Shown: positions 54,508 to 64,000 of the stretch, one piece after another | How positions within the stretch are numbered: the stretch's first letter is position 1 | Layout of the letters: every line of letters begins with the position of its first letter | Origin: Candidatus Peregrinibacteria bacterium | GTDB lineage: Bacteria; Patescibacteriota; Gracilibacteria; UM-FILTER-43-11 | Assembly: GCA_016932505.1 (NCBI GenBank) | Contig: JAFGCT010000035.1 | Location: forward strand, 62,001 to 126,000 | Length of the DNA: 64,000 nt | Reading direction: 5' to 3' | Translations under genes and position numbers: made by a program | The notes under the pieces: model-generated | The model's database searches: none | What the model was told of the DNA's origin: nothing | Seen by the model: only the letters and a program-made list of their open reading frames with translations

Positions 54508-54520
54508 TAATTATTCAAAA

Positions 54521-54887
54521 CTCATAAGCCGAGTTCTGTTCCCCGAAGTAAATTGGGGAAGTAGTTATCTATCTTAACCCCGAAGTAAATCGGGATATTT
54601 AGCGGTTGCAGGAATGGATAAACGAGCAATTCATTAATCCCATTCCCCCATACAACCTTGCACCAGGTGGGGTTTACCGCCCCAATACGCTCACGCGATT
54701 GGAGACCGTACTAATTATTACGGACTTTTCACCCTTATCCGCCGAGGCGAAAGGTATAGTTTCTGTGGCACTTTCCCTTGTCCATGTGTTACCACTGGAC
54801 CGGTCGCCGTTAGCGACCACCCTGCTCTTTGGTGCTCGGACTTTCCTCTCATAGACACACTTTCGCGTGTCTAGAGCAACTACTACG
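54521..54887 (-). ncRNA. rnpB: RNase P RNA (bacterial type A)
   Basis: Minus strand. The conserved core is clear: GAGGAAAGTCCGAGC at 54834-54848, ACAGAAACTATAC, AAGGGTGAAAAGT, and the 3' ACAGAACTCGGCTTAT near 54525-54540. It removes 5' leaders from pre-tRNA. Ends are estimated. The 3' half contains two copies of CCCCGAAGTAAAT (54541-54553 and 54578-54590), each able to form a small hairpin. Confidence 0.93.
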
Positions 54888-55067
54888 GTTTAAAATAATC
54901 AAATGGTACAAGTTTTATAACATATATTTTCTAGTTTGACCATAATAAAAAATATTGACAGTTATTCTGAAATCCAATAACTTAGTTCTGCTCATTTTAA
55001 TTTTAGATTAAAAAATATATCATTTCTTAAATGAAGAATGTAGAATCTAAAATGCAAAATGAAACGA

Positions 55068-55623: not shown

Positions 55624-55974
55624 ATGATCAAAAAGATTCTTGCACCCCTTGGAGTATTTGCTTTATATATTAATGATGCTTATGCACAATCCGCTGGGTT
55701 TTTTGATAACCCCCAGACTGGTGCAGCACCATCTGCTACTGCTCAAGGCACTTTAGGTCAAAATATTACTACTATATTAAACTTCTTCCTTGGAATTCTT
55801 GGTCTAATTGCTGTTGCATTCTTAATTTATGCTGGAGTTCTTATGGTTACTGCAGGTGGAGGAGAAGAGCAGATTAACAAGGCAAAGAAAATTATCACAT
55901 ATGCTGTTATTGGTATCGTGATTATATTACTTGCATGGACAATCGTTACATTCGTAACTAGCGCTCTAGGTTAA
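55624..55974 (+). CDS. TrbC/VirB2-like pilin-type membrane protein
   Basis: A 116-residue protein with a signal-like N-terminus (ILAPLGVFALYINDAYA), two hydrophobic helices (ITTILNFFLGILGLIAVAFL and IITYAVIGIVIILLAWTIV), and the short loop MVTAGGGEEQINKAKK. This arrangement, including the GGGEEQxxKAKK loop, is the TrbC/VirB2 pilin-superfamily pattern common in Patescibacteria. Function here, secretion or attachment, is unproven, because no VirB4 or VirD4 ATPase is visible in the window. A strong terminator makes it a single-gene transcript. Confidence 0.85.
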   Translation: MIKKILAPLGVFALYINDAYAQSAGFFDNPQTGAAPSATAQGTLGQNITTILNFFLGILGLIAVAFLIYAGVLMVTAGGGEEQINKAKKIITYAVIGIVIILLAWTIVTFVTSALG

Positions 55975-56164: not shown

Positions 56165-56701
56165 CTAAGTCACCGCTGGGCTCTCTAATATAACCGGCTC
56201 AATGATTTCCTCTTTAATTTCAGTTTTGTCTTCCACAATTATTGCCGATTTCTTAATCTTTATAATCGAGTTAAAACTGAAGATTCTTCTCTGATAGCCA
56301 AATAATCCTATAAACTTCTTTTCTGTATATATCTGTCTTAATTTCAAATTCTTTGTATCAAAATCAAAATCATAAACAGAGCCTAAATATCTACCTTCTT
56401 TATTTTCTACATTGTTTCCAACTATCATAATTTCTTTTTCAAGAATTTCTGTAATGTTTATTAAATCGTCTGACTCAGATATTACAGAATCGTCTTTAAT
56501 ATATATTTTGCTCTTCCATTCAATAATATCTGATGTACGTAAAACCGCATTAGTTAAAGGTAAAGTCAATGATTTTACCCACAACCCCTCAATTTTACCT
56601 GTATCAGTATCTATTATTACATCGCTAGCTACTGCCAAAATATTACCATCATCGTGCTGGTGTATTTGTGTGCCGATAATTGATAGGTAATCTTTTATCA
56701 T
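56165..56701 (-). CDS. PRC-barrel domain protein
   Basis: The 178-residue protein seems to contain two PRC-barrel-like modules: VASDVIIDTDTGKIEGLWV near residue 24 and the later GRYLGSVYDFDFDTKNLKL. PRC barrels occur in RNA-processing (RimM) and photosynthetic reaction centre proteins and in many unknown bacterial proteins; the role here is unknown. C-terminus is Glu/Ile-rich and disordered-looking. It converges on the pilin-like gene. Confidence 0.75.
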   Translation of the reverse strand: MIKDYLSIIGTQIHQHDDGNILAVASDVIIDTDTGKIEGLWVKSLTLPLTNAVLRTSDIIEWKSKIYIKDDSVISESDDLINITEILEKEIMIVGNNVENKEGRYLGSVYDFDFDTKNLKLRQIYTEKKFIGLFGYQRRIFSFNSIIKIKKSAIIVEDKTEIKEEIIEPVILESPAVT

Positions 56702-56765: not shown

Positions 56766-56880
56766 TTGACATTTTTAGATTAAGTGGTAGAATGTGAAAT
56801 AAGCTGTGAGCTAGTAACTCCTACATGATGCGCCTCGGCTTCCACATCACATACCATACCCGTCGGGTTTTATTTTGGCT
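56766..56880 (+). ncRNA. Candidate small RNA transcription unit
   Basis: A near-consensus promoter, TTGACA at 56766-56771 and TAGAAT at 56788-56793 (16-base spacer), stands before about 80 bases without an open frame. They contain GC-richer segments (TGATG...CATCA) and end near CCCGTCGGGTTTTATTTT. It could be an independent RNA or a long leader of the next gene, which has a promoter of its own. Confidence 0.35.
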
Positions 56881-56972: not shown

Positions 56973-59900
56973 ATGGATATTTTTCGAAAGAACAAATTAT
57001 CGGTATGTAGTTATTTTGAATTTAATCATGTCCTTTTCAGCAATAGAATGCTGTTCTATACACCTGAATCTTTAGAGCATTCAAATAATGCAATAGATAG
57101 TGCGATTACAAGTAAAAGAAATGATGTAATTGCCAGAATGAATAGCGCTAAAAGAAATTCAAAGGAGTGGCATGAATTAAATACAACTCTGGATGAAATA
57201 AATACTTCACGCGACTTAATCGAATCCCCTGTTACTGATGAGCGTAGTGCAAATAGTGCTATTGAAGAAATTGATTTATCGAATGCATGGCTCGCAAACA
57301 TTTCTAAAAGTGGCGTAAGAGCGCAGGATGTATTAACTATTGCTAGGTATAAACATTTCTTTGACGATGCTACCACCGCTAGATTCAATCAGATGTTTAC
57401 GCAACTTCAAACATCATTCAATGTTTCAGATGTATTAAGAACTAATAACACCTTTGTACCAGATAATATTCAATCTCAGGCTGAAAGAATGGTTGATAAA
57501 AAGGACACTGAGGTAAAACTAGAAAAAATCCGTGAACAGAAGCTTAGTGAATATGAGACTCAATTTCAAATTGATCTTAAGAGTTTAAAAACCAAATATG
57601 ATTCAAATGATATTGATTTTGCAAAGTATTCAAACGAACGTTCTAAACTTATTAAGCAACGACAGGATTTTATTGAATCTCTACAAAGAGACGACTTTAT
57701 TGACCCTACCGAATTAACTAAACTCTTAAAGGAAACAAATGGAATGACGGATTCTGACAGGCAAAAGTATCTCGACTCCGTTCTATACAAATTGCAACAT
57801 AAGGAAAAAATGAACCTCCTGACCGAAAAGTCCAAAGGTTTCCTTTCCGGTACTGAAATCGATAAAATTAAATCTGTTCTTGTGGAAGTGAGAAGATACC
57901 GAGGCCTTGCTCTTCATGAGCACATTCAAGGCAGATTAGATGGAATAAGAAAAATCTACGAAGAACATAGCTGGCCAGCACAAGACCTTGACCTTCTTGA
58001 AAAGGGGCTAAGGGATAAATCTGAGTATTTACAAGACCCCGATTCTATAAAAAGTGTTTTAGATGCAATTAAGAAACTAGAGTTCCGCACTAACGCAATT
58101 GTTAAAAAAGAAGCTAGATTACAAACCCCTGAAAACAAAGAAAAGCTTTCTTATTTGGAAAGAGAATTTGCGAAATTTACGATTAATCCTGAAAAGGCAT
58201 CTTTAATTGCCAAGTTAATTCCAAATCCGAATGAAGGTTCAGTAATATATTTGAAAAAAGCTCAAGGCGTCGCTAATCTTGCTGAGTATCAGCAATTTCT
58301 TTCGGATTTAAAAGCGGATGCGAATAGCGCAAATCAACAGGAAAGATTTGATGCCTCAGTTACAATCGATGAAGTTTACACATTACTAAGACGTGCTGAA
58401 GCGGATAAAGCCACCAGAATCATAAACGGACTTTCTGTGTGTACTACAACAGAGGAAATGATGAAGTTTGTAATGGATAATGCAAGCGACCATGTTGAAT
58501 TAATTAAAACCACAACTGAATTTAATTCAAAATATGGGGATTATACTTCTGGCGGAATGGTTTTTTACCGCAGAGGCGAAGAATGGAAAGTGATTATTAA
58601 TGAACAGAAGATGAATGACCCGGGCACTGATCCGGAAAAATTCAAAGAGCAGATGATACATGAAATGCATCATGTTGAATATGATTATAATCAAGACATT
58701 ACTGATTCAGAGTACGCCAGGTTTACTAATAATAAGAAATGGATTGATATTAAACAGGCTTTTATTGATAAAGCTAATGCCAATCCAACGCCAAAAATGC
58801 CTCCTACTTTCAAAGGTAATCCTAAATCCGCCTATACAATTAAAGACTGGGAAGATGCCGATGTAGTAAGTGAACTGTATGCGATGCAGGAGACCATGGC
58901 AAATCATTCTATTGCTGAAACTCCGAATCAAACTCCATTTGATAAATTAGTAAGTCTTGTCGCTTCTGCAGGGTTATTAGCTGAAATAAATAAACCTAAT
59001 GCAAAGATTTCCGGTTTTGAAGGTAAAGATGATGCAGTAATAAGAGGCGCAGAAGATGATGGAGGCAGTAGTCCAAAGCAAACCAATGGAACTTCTGTGG
59101 CTAGCCAAGTAGCTTCCAGTGCAGATGAAACTACAAATGATTTTAAAACCTCCAATATACTAAATCGAATTAAAGCAATAAGAGAAACCGGAGTTATAGG
59201 AAACATCCCTGATGCTGCTGAAATATTAAAAGTTGTTGAAGATAAATGTAATGATAATCCTTCTGATACTTATCTTGAAAGTGCTGAAGGAGCAATTGGA
59301 AAAGTAGAAGATGCAATAAAAGATTATACCGCCAAGAATCCAAAAGGCTCTGATAATCCTATTAGGGATTTATGGAATGGCACAACCTTTTTATCAATTG
59401 ACGATATTGTACAGCTTGGTAAATTTACTTATGAATTTTATCAAAGGAGACACAAACGAAGAACTGAAGATCATGCAGCTAAACTTGGAGAAGCACTCTT
59501 TAGCAATATCCCTTTCTTAAAAGAACTTGGAATGGATGCATCTGCTAATAAAGAAAAGGCCGAAGCAGAATACGTAAATGAATGGAAAGGAAGACTTGAA
59601 AATAAAGATGCATGGGTATTACTAAGTATGATTGATAAAATGGGGAACCAACCCTTACCCGATAAAGATCAATTAAAAGCTATATTAAGAATTCTTTCAG
59701 AAAAAGGTCGTATCGATTGGACTCAGCCCGGACTTTGGAAAACATTAAATAAGCTTCAGGCAGGTGAAAAATTTGACTTGGGTGATCAATTCCTACTTCA
59801 GAACCCAGACGCTCTTAACCAGAAGATAATGGCGGCGATGGGTGAAATGTGGGATTTTGACGAATTCCAGCAATTATTAAATAAAAACGAAAGTAGCTAC

Positions 59901-61043
59901 AGTAGTAAGAAAGAAGATTATATGAAGACATATGACAAACTTCAGGGACGTCTCGATTCTAGGCTATACGAATTACTTTCTTTACATAGAAATGATGGGA
60001 ATGCCGATCCTGCTGAGTTTGAGGCTATTCTTGAATATGCAATTAAAAACGGAAAATCACATCAGGAAAACGTCTTCTTTTATCTTATTTCAGGAATGGC
60101 GTCTGGACTACTTGCAGCAGATAGAGGTATACATCTGGATAAGCATCTAAATCTTTTTCCGCCACTAGATTGGTTTACATTTTTAAAGCCACCTCCAACA
60201 CAGCAGTGGTTCGAGAATCTATGTAATACTTACTTTAAAGATGAATATAAAAATGGGAAAAAGCAAGCGACAGGTACTGGTGGTGAATTTCAGAATTTTT
60301 ACTGGACGGTTATTCTTAATAACAAAGATGTAATTGAAAGAACTCAAAAATCTGCTAAACCGGATGCATGGGATCATGACTGGTCTAGAGGTATTTCCGT
60401 TAATGGAGGTGCTGATACCTGTGATCGTTTCCTTAGTGGAGGTTCAGGACAAAAACAAACAAGACCTACCGCTGTTGCGAATGCAATGGGAGGTATTATT
60501 CAATGGCTGGAGGAAAATGCTAAAAAACCTGGTAAACACTGGGATGATAATATTGCAGACCATATAGCTTGGATGGCAATGGCTGACGGTATTATGGAAA
60601 ATGTAGCTTATTCAGACAATAAGACATATACGAGAAAAGAAGCCCTTCAGGGTGGCAAGCCAGTACGTGAAGGTAGTGTAGGTTATCACGGAAATCAATC
60701 AGCCGAATGGCATTGGAGAAAGATGCAAGATATTCTAGATGTAATTGACCCTGTACTTTTTGGCTATTTAAGAAACAAGGAAATGAGAGATGAGCCTTCT
60801 AATAACGATAAGGACGGTAAGAAAGGTGTAGCAATAACAAACAGAATTCTTACACATTTAAAGACAAATTATAGTGGAGATAAAGATTTGGATGATACCA
60901 TTACTGGGATTAACTCAATCGATGATGTGTTTAAAAACTTGGCTGTAATTATTAATGCTGTAGTTAAAGCGAATCCTGGAAAAATGGAACAGGTAAGGAA
61001 TATGCTTGTTGACCCTAAAACCGGGCAAGTAAGAGCTGGGTAA
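56973..61043 (+). CDS. Giant 1356-residue protein with HExxH motif
   Basis: Not recognised as a known family. N-terminal about 430 residues are strongly helical and charged, probably coiled coil (for example KKDTEVKLEKIREQKLSEYE). Near residue 563 MIHEMHHVEYDY contains HExxH (H563, E564, H567), a zinc-peptidase signature, with a downstream WEDADVVSELYAMQE that could supply a third ligand (E634). A low-complexity linker follows at about 690-730, then a long C-terminal part rich in Trp (WDHDWSRGISVNGGADTC). No signal peptide or membrane helix is evident. It stands alone, downstream of PRC-barrel and pilin-type genes. Confidence 0.75.
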   Translation: MDIFRKNKLSVCSYFEFNHVLFSNRMLFYTPESLEHSNNAIDSAITSKRNDVIARMNSAKRNSKEWHELNTTLDEINTSRDLIESPVTDERSANSAIEEIDLSNAWLANISKSGVRAQDVLTIARYKHFFDDATTARFNQMFTQLQTSFNVSDVLRTNNTFVPDNIQSQAERMVDKKDTEVKLEKIREQKLSEYETQFQIDLKSLKTKYDSNDIDFAKYSNERSKLIKQRQDFIESLQRDDFIDPTELTKLLKETNGMTDSDRQKYLDSVLYKLQHKEKMNLLTEKSKGFLSGTEIDKIKSVLVEVRRYRGLALHEHIQGRLDGIRKIYEEHSWPAQDLDLLEKGLRDKSEYLQDPDSIKSVLDAIKKLEFRTNAIVKKEARLQTPENKEKLSYLEREFAKFTINPEKASLIAKLIPNPNEGSVIYLKKAQGVANLAEYQQFLSDLKADANSANQQERFDASVTIDEVYTLLRRAEADKATRIINGLSVCTTTEEMMKFVMDNASDHVELIKTTTEFNSKYGDYTSGGMVFYRRGEEWKVIINEQKMNDPGTDPEKFKEQMIHEMHHVEYDYNQDITDSEYARFTNNKKWIDIKQAFIDKANANPTPKMPPTFKGNPKSAYTIKDWEDADVVSELYAMQETMANHSIAETPNQTPFDKLVSLVASAGLLAEINKPNAKISGFEGKDDAVIRGAEDDGGSSPKQTNGTSVASQVASSADETTNDFKTSNILNRIKAIRETGVIGNIPDAAEILKVVEDKCNDNPSDTYLESAEGAIGKVEDAIKDYTAKNPKGSDNPIRDLWNGTTFLSIDDIVQLGKFTYEFYQRRHKRRTEDHAAKLGEALFSNIPFLKELGMDASANKEKAEAEYVNEWKGRLENKDAWVLLSMIDKMGNQPLPDKDQLKAILRILSEKGRIDWTQPGLWKTLNKLQAGEKFDLGDQFLLQNPDALNQKIMAAMGEMWDFDEFQQLLNKNESSYSSKKEDYMKTYDKLQGRLDSRLYELLSLHRNDGNADPAEFEAILEYAIKNGKSHQENVFFYLISGMASGLLAADRGIHLDKHLNLFPPLDWFTFLKPPPTQQWFENLCNTYFKDEYKNGKKQATGTGGEFQNFYWTVILNNKDVIERTQKSAKPDAWDHDWSRGISVNGGADTCDRFLSGGSGQKQTRPTAVANAMGGIIQWLEENAKKPGKHWDDNIADHIAWMAMADGIMENVAYSDNKTYTRKEALQGGKPVREGSVGYHGNQSAEWHWRKMQDILDVIDPVLFGYLRNKEMRDEPSNNDKDGKKGVAITNRILTHLKTNYSGDKDLDDTITGINSIDDVFKNLAVIINAVVKANPGKMEQVRNMLVDPKTGQVRAG

Positions 61044-61077: not shown

Positions 61078-62046
61078 CTAAGAACGAAGCTCAATTTCTA
61101 AAATCCCTTTAACTTCATCAACCGATTCAACTGTAACAAGTTTTGCCCTTAGTTTTGCTGCATTTGGAAGACCTTTTATGTAAGAGGCAAAGTGCTTTCT
61201 TATATCAAGCATTCCTTTCTTTTTGCCAAGCATTTCAATATTAAGCTCGCAGTGATGTATCATGAATTTTTTAAGTGATTCAAAATCTTCTGGTTTTTTC
61301 TTGATATCTTTCTCGTCAATAATTCCTAAAGCCGCGCATACCTCACCCATTAACCATGGATTACCAAAAGTCCCCCGCCCTACCATTACACCATCTAAAT
61401 TTTTAATTTTGTTCTTGGCATCATTACCACTTATTATATCACCATTACCCGTAACAGGAATTTTTAGAGTTTCTTTCAATCGATAAATCGGCTCCCAATC
61501 TGCTTTACCTAAAAATGCCTGAGAAGTAGTACGCCCATGTACTGTAATCATCTGAGCTCCAGCATTTTCAAGCCCTTTTGCAAAATCAAGTAATGTTGAA
61601 TCATCCGACCACCCTAGCCTTGTTTTTACAGAAACCGGAAGTTTGGTATTTGCTCTGCAAGTCTCTACAATCTCAAAAGCCAATTCAGGAGTTTTTATAA
61701 GGGCGGAACCGTGCATAGAACCAACAACTTTTTTTGCGGGACAACCCATATTAATATCCACACCATCAAAACCCATGTCCTCAGCAATTTTTACAGCTTC
61801 TTTAAAATGGTCTATATGTTTACCAAATAACTGGAGAATATGTGGTCGCTCGGCTTCTTTAAACCTCAGCATCTCAATAGTTTTTTTGGAACCGTAAGAA
61901 AGTCCATCCGCACTTATCAGTTCTGTAATACAAATAACAGGCGGTGCTATTTCCTTTATAAGCTGGCGGAATGGCGAATCTGTATAACCCGCCATTGGGG
62001 CGAGGATTACGTATGGTTTTGTGATTTCGTTCCAATTGAATGTCAT
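61078..62046 (-). CDS. dusB: tRNA-dihydrouridine synthase
   Basis: FMN enzyme that reduces uridine to dihydrouridine in tRNA D-loops. Start at ATG 62044-62046 (MTFNWNEITKPYVILAPMAG); the upstream extension of 26 residues is compositionally odd. Signatures: PMAGYTDSPFRQL, INMGCPAKKVVGSMHGSALI with the catalytic Cys, VKTRLGW, VHGRTTSQAFLGKADW and GNGDIIS. 322 residues. Closest to the DusB type. It follows priA with about 85 bases between. Confidence 0.95.
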   Translation of the reverse strand: MTFNWNEITKPYVILAPMAGYTDSPFRQLIKEIAPPVICITELISADGLSYGSKKTIEMLRFKEAERPHILQLFGKHIDHFKEAVKIAEDMGFDGVDINMGCPAKKVVGSMHGSALIKTPELAFEIVETCRANTKLPVSVKTRLGWSDDSTLLDFAKGLENAGAQMITVHGRTTSQAFLGKADWEPIYRLKETLKIPVTGNGDIISGNDAKNKIKNLDGVMVGRGTFGNPWLMGEVCAALGIIDEKDIKKKPEDFESLKKFMIHHCELNIEMLGKKKGMLDIRKHFASYIKGLPNAAKLRAKLVTVESVDEVKGILEIELRS

Positions 62047-62130
62047 GTTTTGTATAGTATTTCGTATTGGGGATCGTATTGATCCATCCAAACTCCTATT
62101 CGAGCTCCAATTCGATTCCCCCATTCGTAT

Positions 62131-64000
62131 TTAAGTTGTATGTATCGGGTCCACATCAATTCTCCAATATTTTGGCACTTTCCAATAATCAAATATTACG
62201 TGTGCGTTCTTTGCACGGATTAAAACATGGTAATAAAATCTACCGGCGATTTTAGAAATCATTGCGGGAGCGAAGACGATTTTAAATGGCAGTTTATTGA
62301 CTTCAAATATATCTTCGAGTATTTCGGATTCTATCTGAATATGTTTTTTGAGCTTTTCCAAATCCGTACCGACTACTGTAAATTTAATTAGTTCGTGAAA
62401 AGGAGGATAATTGAGTTTTTCACGAAATTCCAGTTCTTTTTCAATAAATTCAATATATTCATTTTTAGAAGCACTTTGAATTGCAAAATTATCTGGCTGA
62501 TATGTTTGAAGAATCACTGACCCACCTGTATCTCCCCTTCCGCACCTCCCAGATACCTGAGTTATTAGCTGAAAAACTCTTTCGTGACTTCTGAAATCCG
62601 GTAAATGAAGACCAATGTCTGCAAGAATTATGCCGATTAAACTTACATTCTCAAAATCCATTCCCTTTGCTACCATTTGAGTTCCTACAAGAATGTCGTA
62701 ATCTCCTTTTTTGAAAGCGTTATAAATTGGCTCGAACCCATTCTTATCACTTGTAGTATCACTATCTGCACGAACAACCCTAGCATCCGGATACAACTTC
62801 ATCACTTCTTCTTCTACCCTTTGAGTCCCTATACCGACATGTTTGATATGTGGTGATTTACACTCAGGGCAGGTAATAACCTGATTTTTTTTAAATCCAC
62901 AATAATGGCACACAAGTTCTCCTCCTCTGAAATTTTTATGATATTTGAGGCTAACCTCACAATGAGGACATTCTTCTGTATAACCACAATCTCTGCAGAC
63001 AACAGCACTTGCCATTCCTCTCTGATTTACAAATAATATTATTTGCTCTTTTTTCTCAAGTTTTTCTTTTATTTTATTTTGAAGCGCAAGAGAAAAAATA
63101 CTGAAGTTCTTTTTCTGAAATTCATCACGCAAATCTATTATCTCAATCTTTGGCAGTTCGTTTTTATTTATTCTTTCTGCAAGGTTTATATATTTATAAT
63201 CCCCTATTTTTGATTTATACATTGTTTCTAGCCTTGGTGTTGCGCTTCCTAAAATCAGCTTTGATTTATACAAATCACTTAGTATTTCACCGATATGATG
63301 AGCTTGATAGTAAGGTGATGATTCCTGCTTGTAAGTCCATTCATGCTCTTCATCCAGAATAATAACTCCAAGATTTTCTGCAGGCGCGAATATTGCCGAT
63401 CTTGAACCGATTACTAGTGGTGCATATCCACTTTTTACTTTCCACCATTCAATCAATCTTTGCCCGTCCGATAATTTTGAATGAAACAATGCTAAGTGCG
63501 GACCAAAGAAATCTTTAAAATAATTAATCATCTGTGGAGTAAGAGCAATCTCTGGAACTAGTAATATAGCTTGCTTATTATTCTTAACTACATCTAGTAT
63601 CACCCTAAGGTAAACCTCTGTTTTACCCGAACTTGTTATCCCATGAAGTAGAATGGGTTTTTCTGAATTTCTTATTTCTTCCAATGCTTTTTGCTGACCT
63701 TCGTTTAATTCATGTCTTAGTTTTATTAACGGAAACTGGCTGTAATCTGGTTTTACATAAATAGGTTTTTCAATTTTTTCGATTATTCCCTTTTCGATTA
63801 ATGATTTCATTGTTGCTTTTGATGCATTTATTTCTGACTCATCAAGCTCTTCTACCTCCGATAACAATCCGACAATTTCTTTTTGCTTTGCACCTCTAAT
63901 ATCATCCGATGAAATGGTAACGTTTCCGTCCTTTCTTTTTTCTGCAATACGGTAAAACACTTTCATTGGTTCCCCTAATTTCCCTTTCCAAATTGCAGTT
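62131..64000 (-). CDS. priA: Primosomal protein N' (PriA helicase), 5' part outside the window
   Basis: Restart helicase that reloads the replisome at stalled forks. Walker A GITSSGKTEVYL, the DEEH box ILDEEHEWTYKQE, a zinc-binding cluster (CRDCGYTEECPHC and CHYCGFKK, then CPECKS) and helicase motifs QVSGRCGRGDTGG are visible. ATG at 63966 is internal rather than a start: the frame is open through 64000 and reads TAIWKGKLGEPMKVFY. The missing N-terminal 3'BD domain therefore lies beyond the window. The C-terminus runs to KVPKYWRIDVDPIHTT. Confidence 0.95.
   Translation of the reverse strand, partial: TAIWKGKLGEPMKVFYRIAEKRKDGNVTISSDDIRGAKQKEIVGLLSEVEELDESEINASKATMKSLIEKGIIEKIEKPIYVKPDYSQFPLIKLRHELNEGQQKALEEIRNSEKPILLHGITSSGKTEVYLRVILDVVKNNKQAILLVPEIALTPQMINYFKDFFGPHLALFHSKLSDGQRLIEWWKVKSGYAPLVIGSRSAIFAPAENLGVIILDEEHEWTYKQESSPYYQAHHIGEILSDLYKSKLILGSATPRLETMYKSKIGDYKYINLAERINKNELPKIEIIDLRDEFQKKNFSIFSLALQNKIKEKLEKKEQIILFVNQRGMASAVVCRDCGYTEECPHCEVSLKYHKNFRGGELVCHYCGFKKNQVITCPECKSPHIKHVGIGTQRVEEEVMKLYPDARVVRADSDTTSDKNGFEPIYNAFKKGDYDILVGTQMVAKGMDFENVSLIGIILADIGLHLPDFRSHERVFQLITQVSGRCGRGDTGGSVILQTYQPDNFAIQSASKNEYIEFIEKELEFREKLNYPPFHELIKFTVVGTDLEKLKKHIQIESEILEDIFEVNKLPFKIVFAPAMISKIAGRFYYHVLIRAKNAHVIFDYWKVPKYWRIDVDPIHTT

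Follow-up and report, generated by a model that had tools for sequence, protein, structure and literature searches.

The 64,000-nucleotide stretch of a Candidatus Peregrinibacteria genome analysed here, referred to as the window, raises the question of what its largest protein does and with which cellular system it works. The gene occupies an ORF at 56973-61043 on the plus strand, open throughout from ATG to stop and encoding 1356 residues, against 878 for the next-largest ORF in the window, as a sequence-only reading of this DNA had claimed. The absence of an export signal, also claimed there, holds as well: the protein has no signal peptide and no predicted TM segments, and its hydropathy, 0.56 near the N-terminus and at most 1.2 over 19 residues, does not fit a Sec-exported adhesin or toxin.

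Upstream of the gene lies a promoter-like site, TTGACA-16-TAGAAT, at 56766-56793 on the plus strand, which matches at 11 of 12 positions and carries a TG before the -10 element. The site makes the proposed promoter of its own plausible, but sigma-70-like sites in the region do not exceed chance, with 4 found and 3.2 expected. A small RNA in the leader between this site and the start codon was ruled out (z +1.0), and Rfam gave no match there. The divergent neighbour (56165-56701, minus strand) encodes a PRC-barrel protein and adjoins pilin genes also at L025, L027 and L118. On the 3' side follow a convergent tRNA-dihydrouridine synthase-like (Dus-like) gene (61078-62124, minus) and a PriA-like helicase gene (62131-63966, minus), both named from their sequences; in f1, the family to which the window belongs, most members have the PriA-like family 3' of the giant. 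The window also holds a bacterial class A RNase P RNA at 54509-54896 on the minus strand (RF00010, 186.8 bits), adjoining a tRNA-Thr, tRNA-Pro and tRNA-Tyr cluster.

A pilin-like gene close by had been taken to agree with an effector, toxin-like or host-contact protein. The gene is a true VirB2-like T4SS_pilin (55624-55974, plus; PF18895, E 1.6e-15), but the window's genome has 19 T4SS_pilin matches, this one among them, and proximity alone is therefore weak evidence. Several of the matches, on contigs C6, C7, C12, C14 and C19 of this genome (G000), stand in tandem arrays, and some share one reading frame.

The giant had been said to belong to no family. We found instead a class-wide family of the Gracilibacteria, which are ultra-small bacteria that depend on a host, albeit one unnamed in Pfam, NCBIfam and PHROGs, none of which has a model above cut-off for the protein. 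A scan of genome contigs with the single protein gave no relative; an alignment-based scan gave 14, from Candidatus Peregrinibacteria, Gracilibacteria and Patescibacteria MAGs. Across 58 genomes, the window's and 57 relatives, the homologue search matched 33; within the same family, 15 of 17 further members had a match, and in the rest of the class roughly half did. A profile built from the C-terminal domain matched 34 of 37 Gracilibacteria genomes, a few of them weakly (E 3e-9 to 9e-4), and 0 of 343 genomes from other classes of the phylum; a missing match in a genome can stem from an incomplete MAG. Genomes have essentially a single copy of the gene. Where a second match occurs, it is a piece of that gene or of one broken over contigs, the exception being a 405-residue fragment-like extra copy in G016.

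The universal part of the family is a new all-helical C-terminal domain (residues ~795-1180; 59355-60512, plus) and not the peptidase, since mean pairwise identity reaches 51% here, against 22% in residues 30-450, 37% in the peptidase, 24% in the linker and 29% in the tail. The model of this domain (pLDDT 82.6) gave no significant Foldseek match against the PDB. Residues G912, G1027, P1063 and D1134 occur in every member aligned over the domain; D1134, found in 34 of 34 members, belongs to a DHD motif at residues 1134-1136 (60372-60380, plus). The C-terminal part is Trp-rich, as described earlier, with 4.55% Trp in residues 1061-1280. The variable region at residues 30-450 (57060-58322, plus) is largely helical; of the long coiled coil proposed for the N-terminal part, composition bears out the helical character (AEKLQRM fraction up to 0.55 at residues 301-400). 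The rise in identity from the N-terminal region through the peptidase to the C-terminal core is a payload-plus-docking-domain pattern.

Close to the start of the protein is a short motif, SNRMLF (residues 23-28; 57039-57056, plus), that recurs in relatives. Its general form, [ENDG]x[RK][LFMVY][LIVFA][FYC] at ~15-35 residues from the start, was found in 16 of 41 giants versus 4 of 338 other ORFs at the same loci, and in 1.4% of shuffles. Certain proteins encoded close to T4SS genes but not homologous to the giant have it too, and it is possibly a targeting motif; besides the window, it was noted at L105:6948-8852, L104:10384-11007 and L173:890-2230. When the DNA of the whole genome was scanned, the motif was as frequent as its reversed-pattern control, so we make no genome-wide claim for it.

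By clustering the genes that neighbour the giant gene, we recognised a recurrent operon. It opens with a small membrane protein of 150-208 residues, followed by one or two variable soluble proteins (~300-780 residues), a multi-pass membrane protein of 640-909 residues with up to eight predicted TM segments, and the giant. In 13 distinct genomes from six families (f4, f7, f16, f18, f21 and f22), the giant gene lies directly downstream of the multi-pass gene on the same strand, with gaps of -1 to 153 bp (L039, L040, L041, L046, L047, L048, L110, L111, L112, L113, L114, L116 and L117). Four f5 genomes (L038, L118, L119 and L121) have it directly behind the gene of the small membrane protein, overlapping or 1 bp apart, and their giants carry HExxH and the downstream Glu. 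Altogether, 17 genomes of seven families place the giant gene tightly behind one of the two membrane genes on the same strand. In three f7 genomes, very large proteins of 2461-2797 residues, cut by the stretch ends and with a signal-peptide-like start, are encoded directly downstream of the giant gene (L045:12118-19500, L048:1-7806 and L123:7610-16000).

The family of the multi-pass protein is not recognised by Pfam, even member by member. Its profile found homologues in 123 of 192 Patescibacteria genomes. At ten loci from other classes, the homologue is followed in most cases by PrgI-like, accessory and VirB4-like ORFs; Pfam confirmed PrgI at both loci tested (PF12666, E 7e-12 and 7e-13) and VirB4 at all three (PF19044, E 1e-31 to 3e-27). 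A homologue of the small membrane protein lies near one of the other-class loci (E 2.8e-20). Because its other-class homologues adjoin PrgI and VirB4, we assign the multi-pass protein, as a divergent form, to the VirB6 position of the Patescibacteria T4SS. In Gracilibacteria, VirB6 was scarce or absent in a 2025 survey, which proposed extreme divergence (PMC12102498); the family of the multi-pass protein is likely the missing one. In the window's genome it is encoded at L104:4918-7188 on contig C36, where the same membrane genes lie beside a TraD/VirD4-type ATPase. In the class members G026, G030, G037, G039, G048, G055 and G056 (families f10 and f14), the homologue search matched no giant and the VirB6-like gene contains in-frame TGA; these lineages are probably recoded. 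The VirB6-like gene of an f11 genome (G027:C17:7039-8151) has two in-frame TGA codons, which may reflect recoding or decay, and the giant gene there (L042) has none.

The operon with T4SS genes is thus a feature of relatives, 13 behind the VirB6-like gene and four behind the small membrane protein gene, and not of the window's genome. The gene had been called solitary, which is true of the window's genome but not of many relatives; the proposed link to host contact, and one to a secretion apparatus, draw support from the operon with the VirB6-like gene in relatives rather than from the pilin. In f1 the membrane genes lie elsewhere in the genome and the giant gene neighbours PriA or Dus-like genes, and in other families ssb, rpsR and further housekeeping genes flank the locus. 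In a tree of the C-terminal domain, T4SS-linked genomes occupy several deep branches, and the association therefore looks ancestral and loosened in the window's family. Independent linkage events are fewer than linked genomes, because neighbours are inherited together. The peptidase labels of this tree are crude, with some members, the window protein included, mislabelled; peptidase status was taken from motif comparisons.

With the gene directly behind a T4SS membrane gene in so many relatives, the giant becomes a candidate cargo or working part of the T4SS, and we are fairly confident that it works with this system in one role or the other. Our computations show the family and its restriction to the class, an active site without variation, a zincin-like fold and, in relatives, operon linkage to T4SS genes; docking, translocation and proteolysis we infer. 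The reading that we prefer, and hold with evenly balanced confidence, is of a giant cytoplasmic protein docked on the T4SS by its C-terminal domain, with a variable N-terminal half that here holds a gluzincin, and probably a translocated substrate. The C-terminal domain, with its DHD motif, would dock on the inner-membrane complex around the VirB6-like protein, and the long, fast-changing N-terminal half would be the lineage-specific business end, which in five families, the window's included, appears to carry a gluzincin-type zinc peptidase (HExxH plus Glu634). The protein would most likely be handed through the T4SS into a bacterial host cell, where the peptidase could cut a host protein, or cut the giant itself and so free its parts. 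Taken by itself, translocation falls slightly short of an even chance in our judgement; an effector or toxin function, as raised earlier, is possible.

A conserved, secretion-tied C-terminal domain, joined to an N-terminal half that changes fast and bears an exchangeable peptidase, suits a T4SS substrate, as well as a cytoplasmic machine part. The giant may, as a possibility to be taken seriously though held with limited confidence, be such a permanent part and not cargo: a scaffold, a sorting platform or an assembly protease, whose peptidase would act on pilins, on substrates or on the giant itself. Its near-universal, single-copy conservation in the class fits a machine part as well and is unusual for an effector, and its operon position directly behind the VirB6-like gene points the same way. 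Conservation of the C-terminal domain at least matches that of the VirB6-like protein (mean identities of 43% and 37%, respectively, across one set of five genomes), and Patescibacteria T4SSs are without recognisable VirB8 and other parts (PMC12102498). Against a fixed component stand the strong variability of the N-terminal half in sequence and in length (full-length members span 1056-1803 residues), the gain or loss of the peptidase between families, and the restriction of the giant to one class, though the T4SS is phylum-wide.

It is improbable that the giant is a housekeeping cytoplasmic protease or scaffold that neighbours T4SS genes incidentally, both lying near replication or translation genes. 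The PriA and Dus-like neighbours in f1, the ssb, rpsR and similar genes flanking the locus in other families, and the lack of a secretion signal would be expected of such a protein; the tight same-strand adjacency in 17 genomes of seven families, and an N-terminal motif common to giants and some non-homologous T4SS-locus proteins, would not.

The peptidase domain spans residues ~486-660 (58428-58952, plus), as delimited by alignments and by a zincin-like fold in the model. Its HEMHH motif at residues 563-567 (58659-58673, plus), invariant in peptidase-bearing members, would provide two zinc-ligand His residues and the catalytic Glu. The third ligand suggested earlier, Glu634 (58872-58874, plus), lies in SELYAMQ within WEDADVVSELYAMQ, is likewise invariant and, in the model, sits on a conserved helix further along. 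Alignments A2 and A4 cover 236 residues of 14-15 homologues, which share 23-33% identity with the window protein there; the H, E, H and E are 4 of only 12 invariant columns, and the motif is therefore not a matter of chance. None of the four residues varies among the 16 representatives compared from five families (f1, f2, f5, f11 and f15), or in any same-family relative that retains the region; by these alignments, HExxH and Glu634 are under selection. The AlphaFold2 model of the region (pLDDT 86.7) has a predicted minimal zincin layout, with three strands (54-57, 75-80 and 83-89), the HExxH helix (100-118) and then the Glu helix (174-183). The zincin core of polyvalent-protein peptidases has the same layout (PMC5512222). 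Foldseek against the PDB returned no match for the model at E <= 0.001, and profile searches of PDB sequences with alignments A4 and A3 gave nothing meaningful. Against a viral structure library the best match had E 5.8e-3, with several zincins among the weak fold matches, and Pfam matches below threshold include five zinc-peptidase families.

The HExxH motif with a downstream Glu, set in the core layout of the AlphaFold2 secondary structure, agrees with clan MA(E) gluzincins. The original motif call is thus upheld by invariant ligands and a predicted fold in which HExxH lies within, and not outside, a zincin-like arrangement; on alignment and model together, the giant is very probably an active gluzincin. 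That the HExxH is degenerate and structural, with no peptidase action, is most unlikely: no profile passes its curated cut-off and family members without the motif exist, but across five families neither the catalytic Glu nor any of the three zinc ligands varies, in a domain otherwise ~30% identical, and the model places them as in zincins. All peptidase-bearing lineages keep HExxH, but members of f4, f7, f16, f18, f21 and f22 are without the peptidase, as far as can be read from their sequences. Since T4SS-operon-linked relatives mostly do without it, the peptidase is a module, and the core of the giant lies elsewhere. Peptidase and secretion linkage co-occur only via the small membrane protein gene in f5; the tightest VirB6-linked relatives mostly have no peptidase.

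Among known systems, one close comparison is with the Patescibacteria T4SS, a monoderm MPF-FATA-like system (PMC12102498): relatives carry the gene behind the VirB6-like gene, and VirB2-like pilins (PF18895), a TraD/VirD4-type ATPase and an AAA_10 ATPase match are present in the window's genome. The giant resembles none of the T4SS components and substrates described so far, and no Pfam or NCBIfam model of such a component or of a secretion signal matched it above cut-off. The polyvalent proteins that phages and conjugative elements encode are likewise very large and include zincin-like metallopeptidases with a minimal zincin; some are carried through T4SSs, and self-cleavage has been proposed for them (PMC5512222). 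The giant differs in being chromosomal, class-wide and near-universal, with conserved chromosomal neighbours, and Pfam detected in it neither an ArdC-N, ART or methylase domain nor any other typical of polyvalent proteins. We rejected carriage of the giant, as a polyvalent protein, on phages, plasmids or conjugative elements, given the class-wide distribution and the lack of a homologue in phage and plasmid records. The effector peptidases of Peptidase_M91 (PF14891) match weakly over residues 485-589, the HExxH region included, but membership was rejected at 14.5 bits for the whole protein and 17.9 for the domain against a cut-off of 25; only 1 of 14 homologues is matched at all. The giant surface proteins of Vampirococcus, from a related CPR lineage, are also very large and thought to contact the host (PMC8080830); they are inferred membrane proteins, whereas the window giant has no signal peptide or TM segment.

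A cultured Patescibacterium cannot grow without its T4SS, yet the role of the system has been called completely unknown, and its effectors are a matter of speculation (PMC11665869). A class-wide giant genetically tied to this system, with a candidate docking domain and a conserved protease site, makes the question of its role testable, and the divergent VirB6-like family of Gracilibacteria is a new identification relative to the 2025 survey (PMC12102498). We suggest, tentatively and with less than even confidence, that the family is the principal T4SS cargo of Gracilibacteria, pairing a conserved C-terminal delivery domain with an exchangeable N-terminal payload that here would be a host-acting zinc protease. 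If so, the giant would be the first named candidate substrate of a Patescibacteria T4SS.
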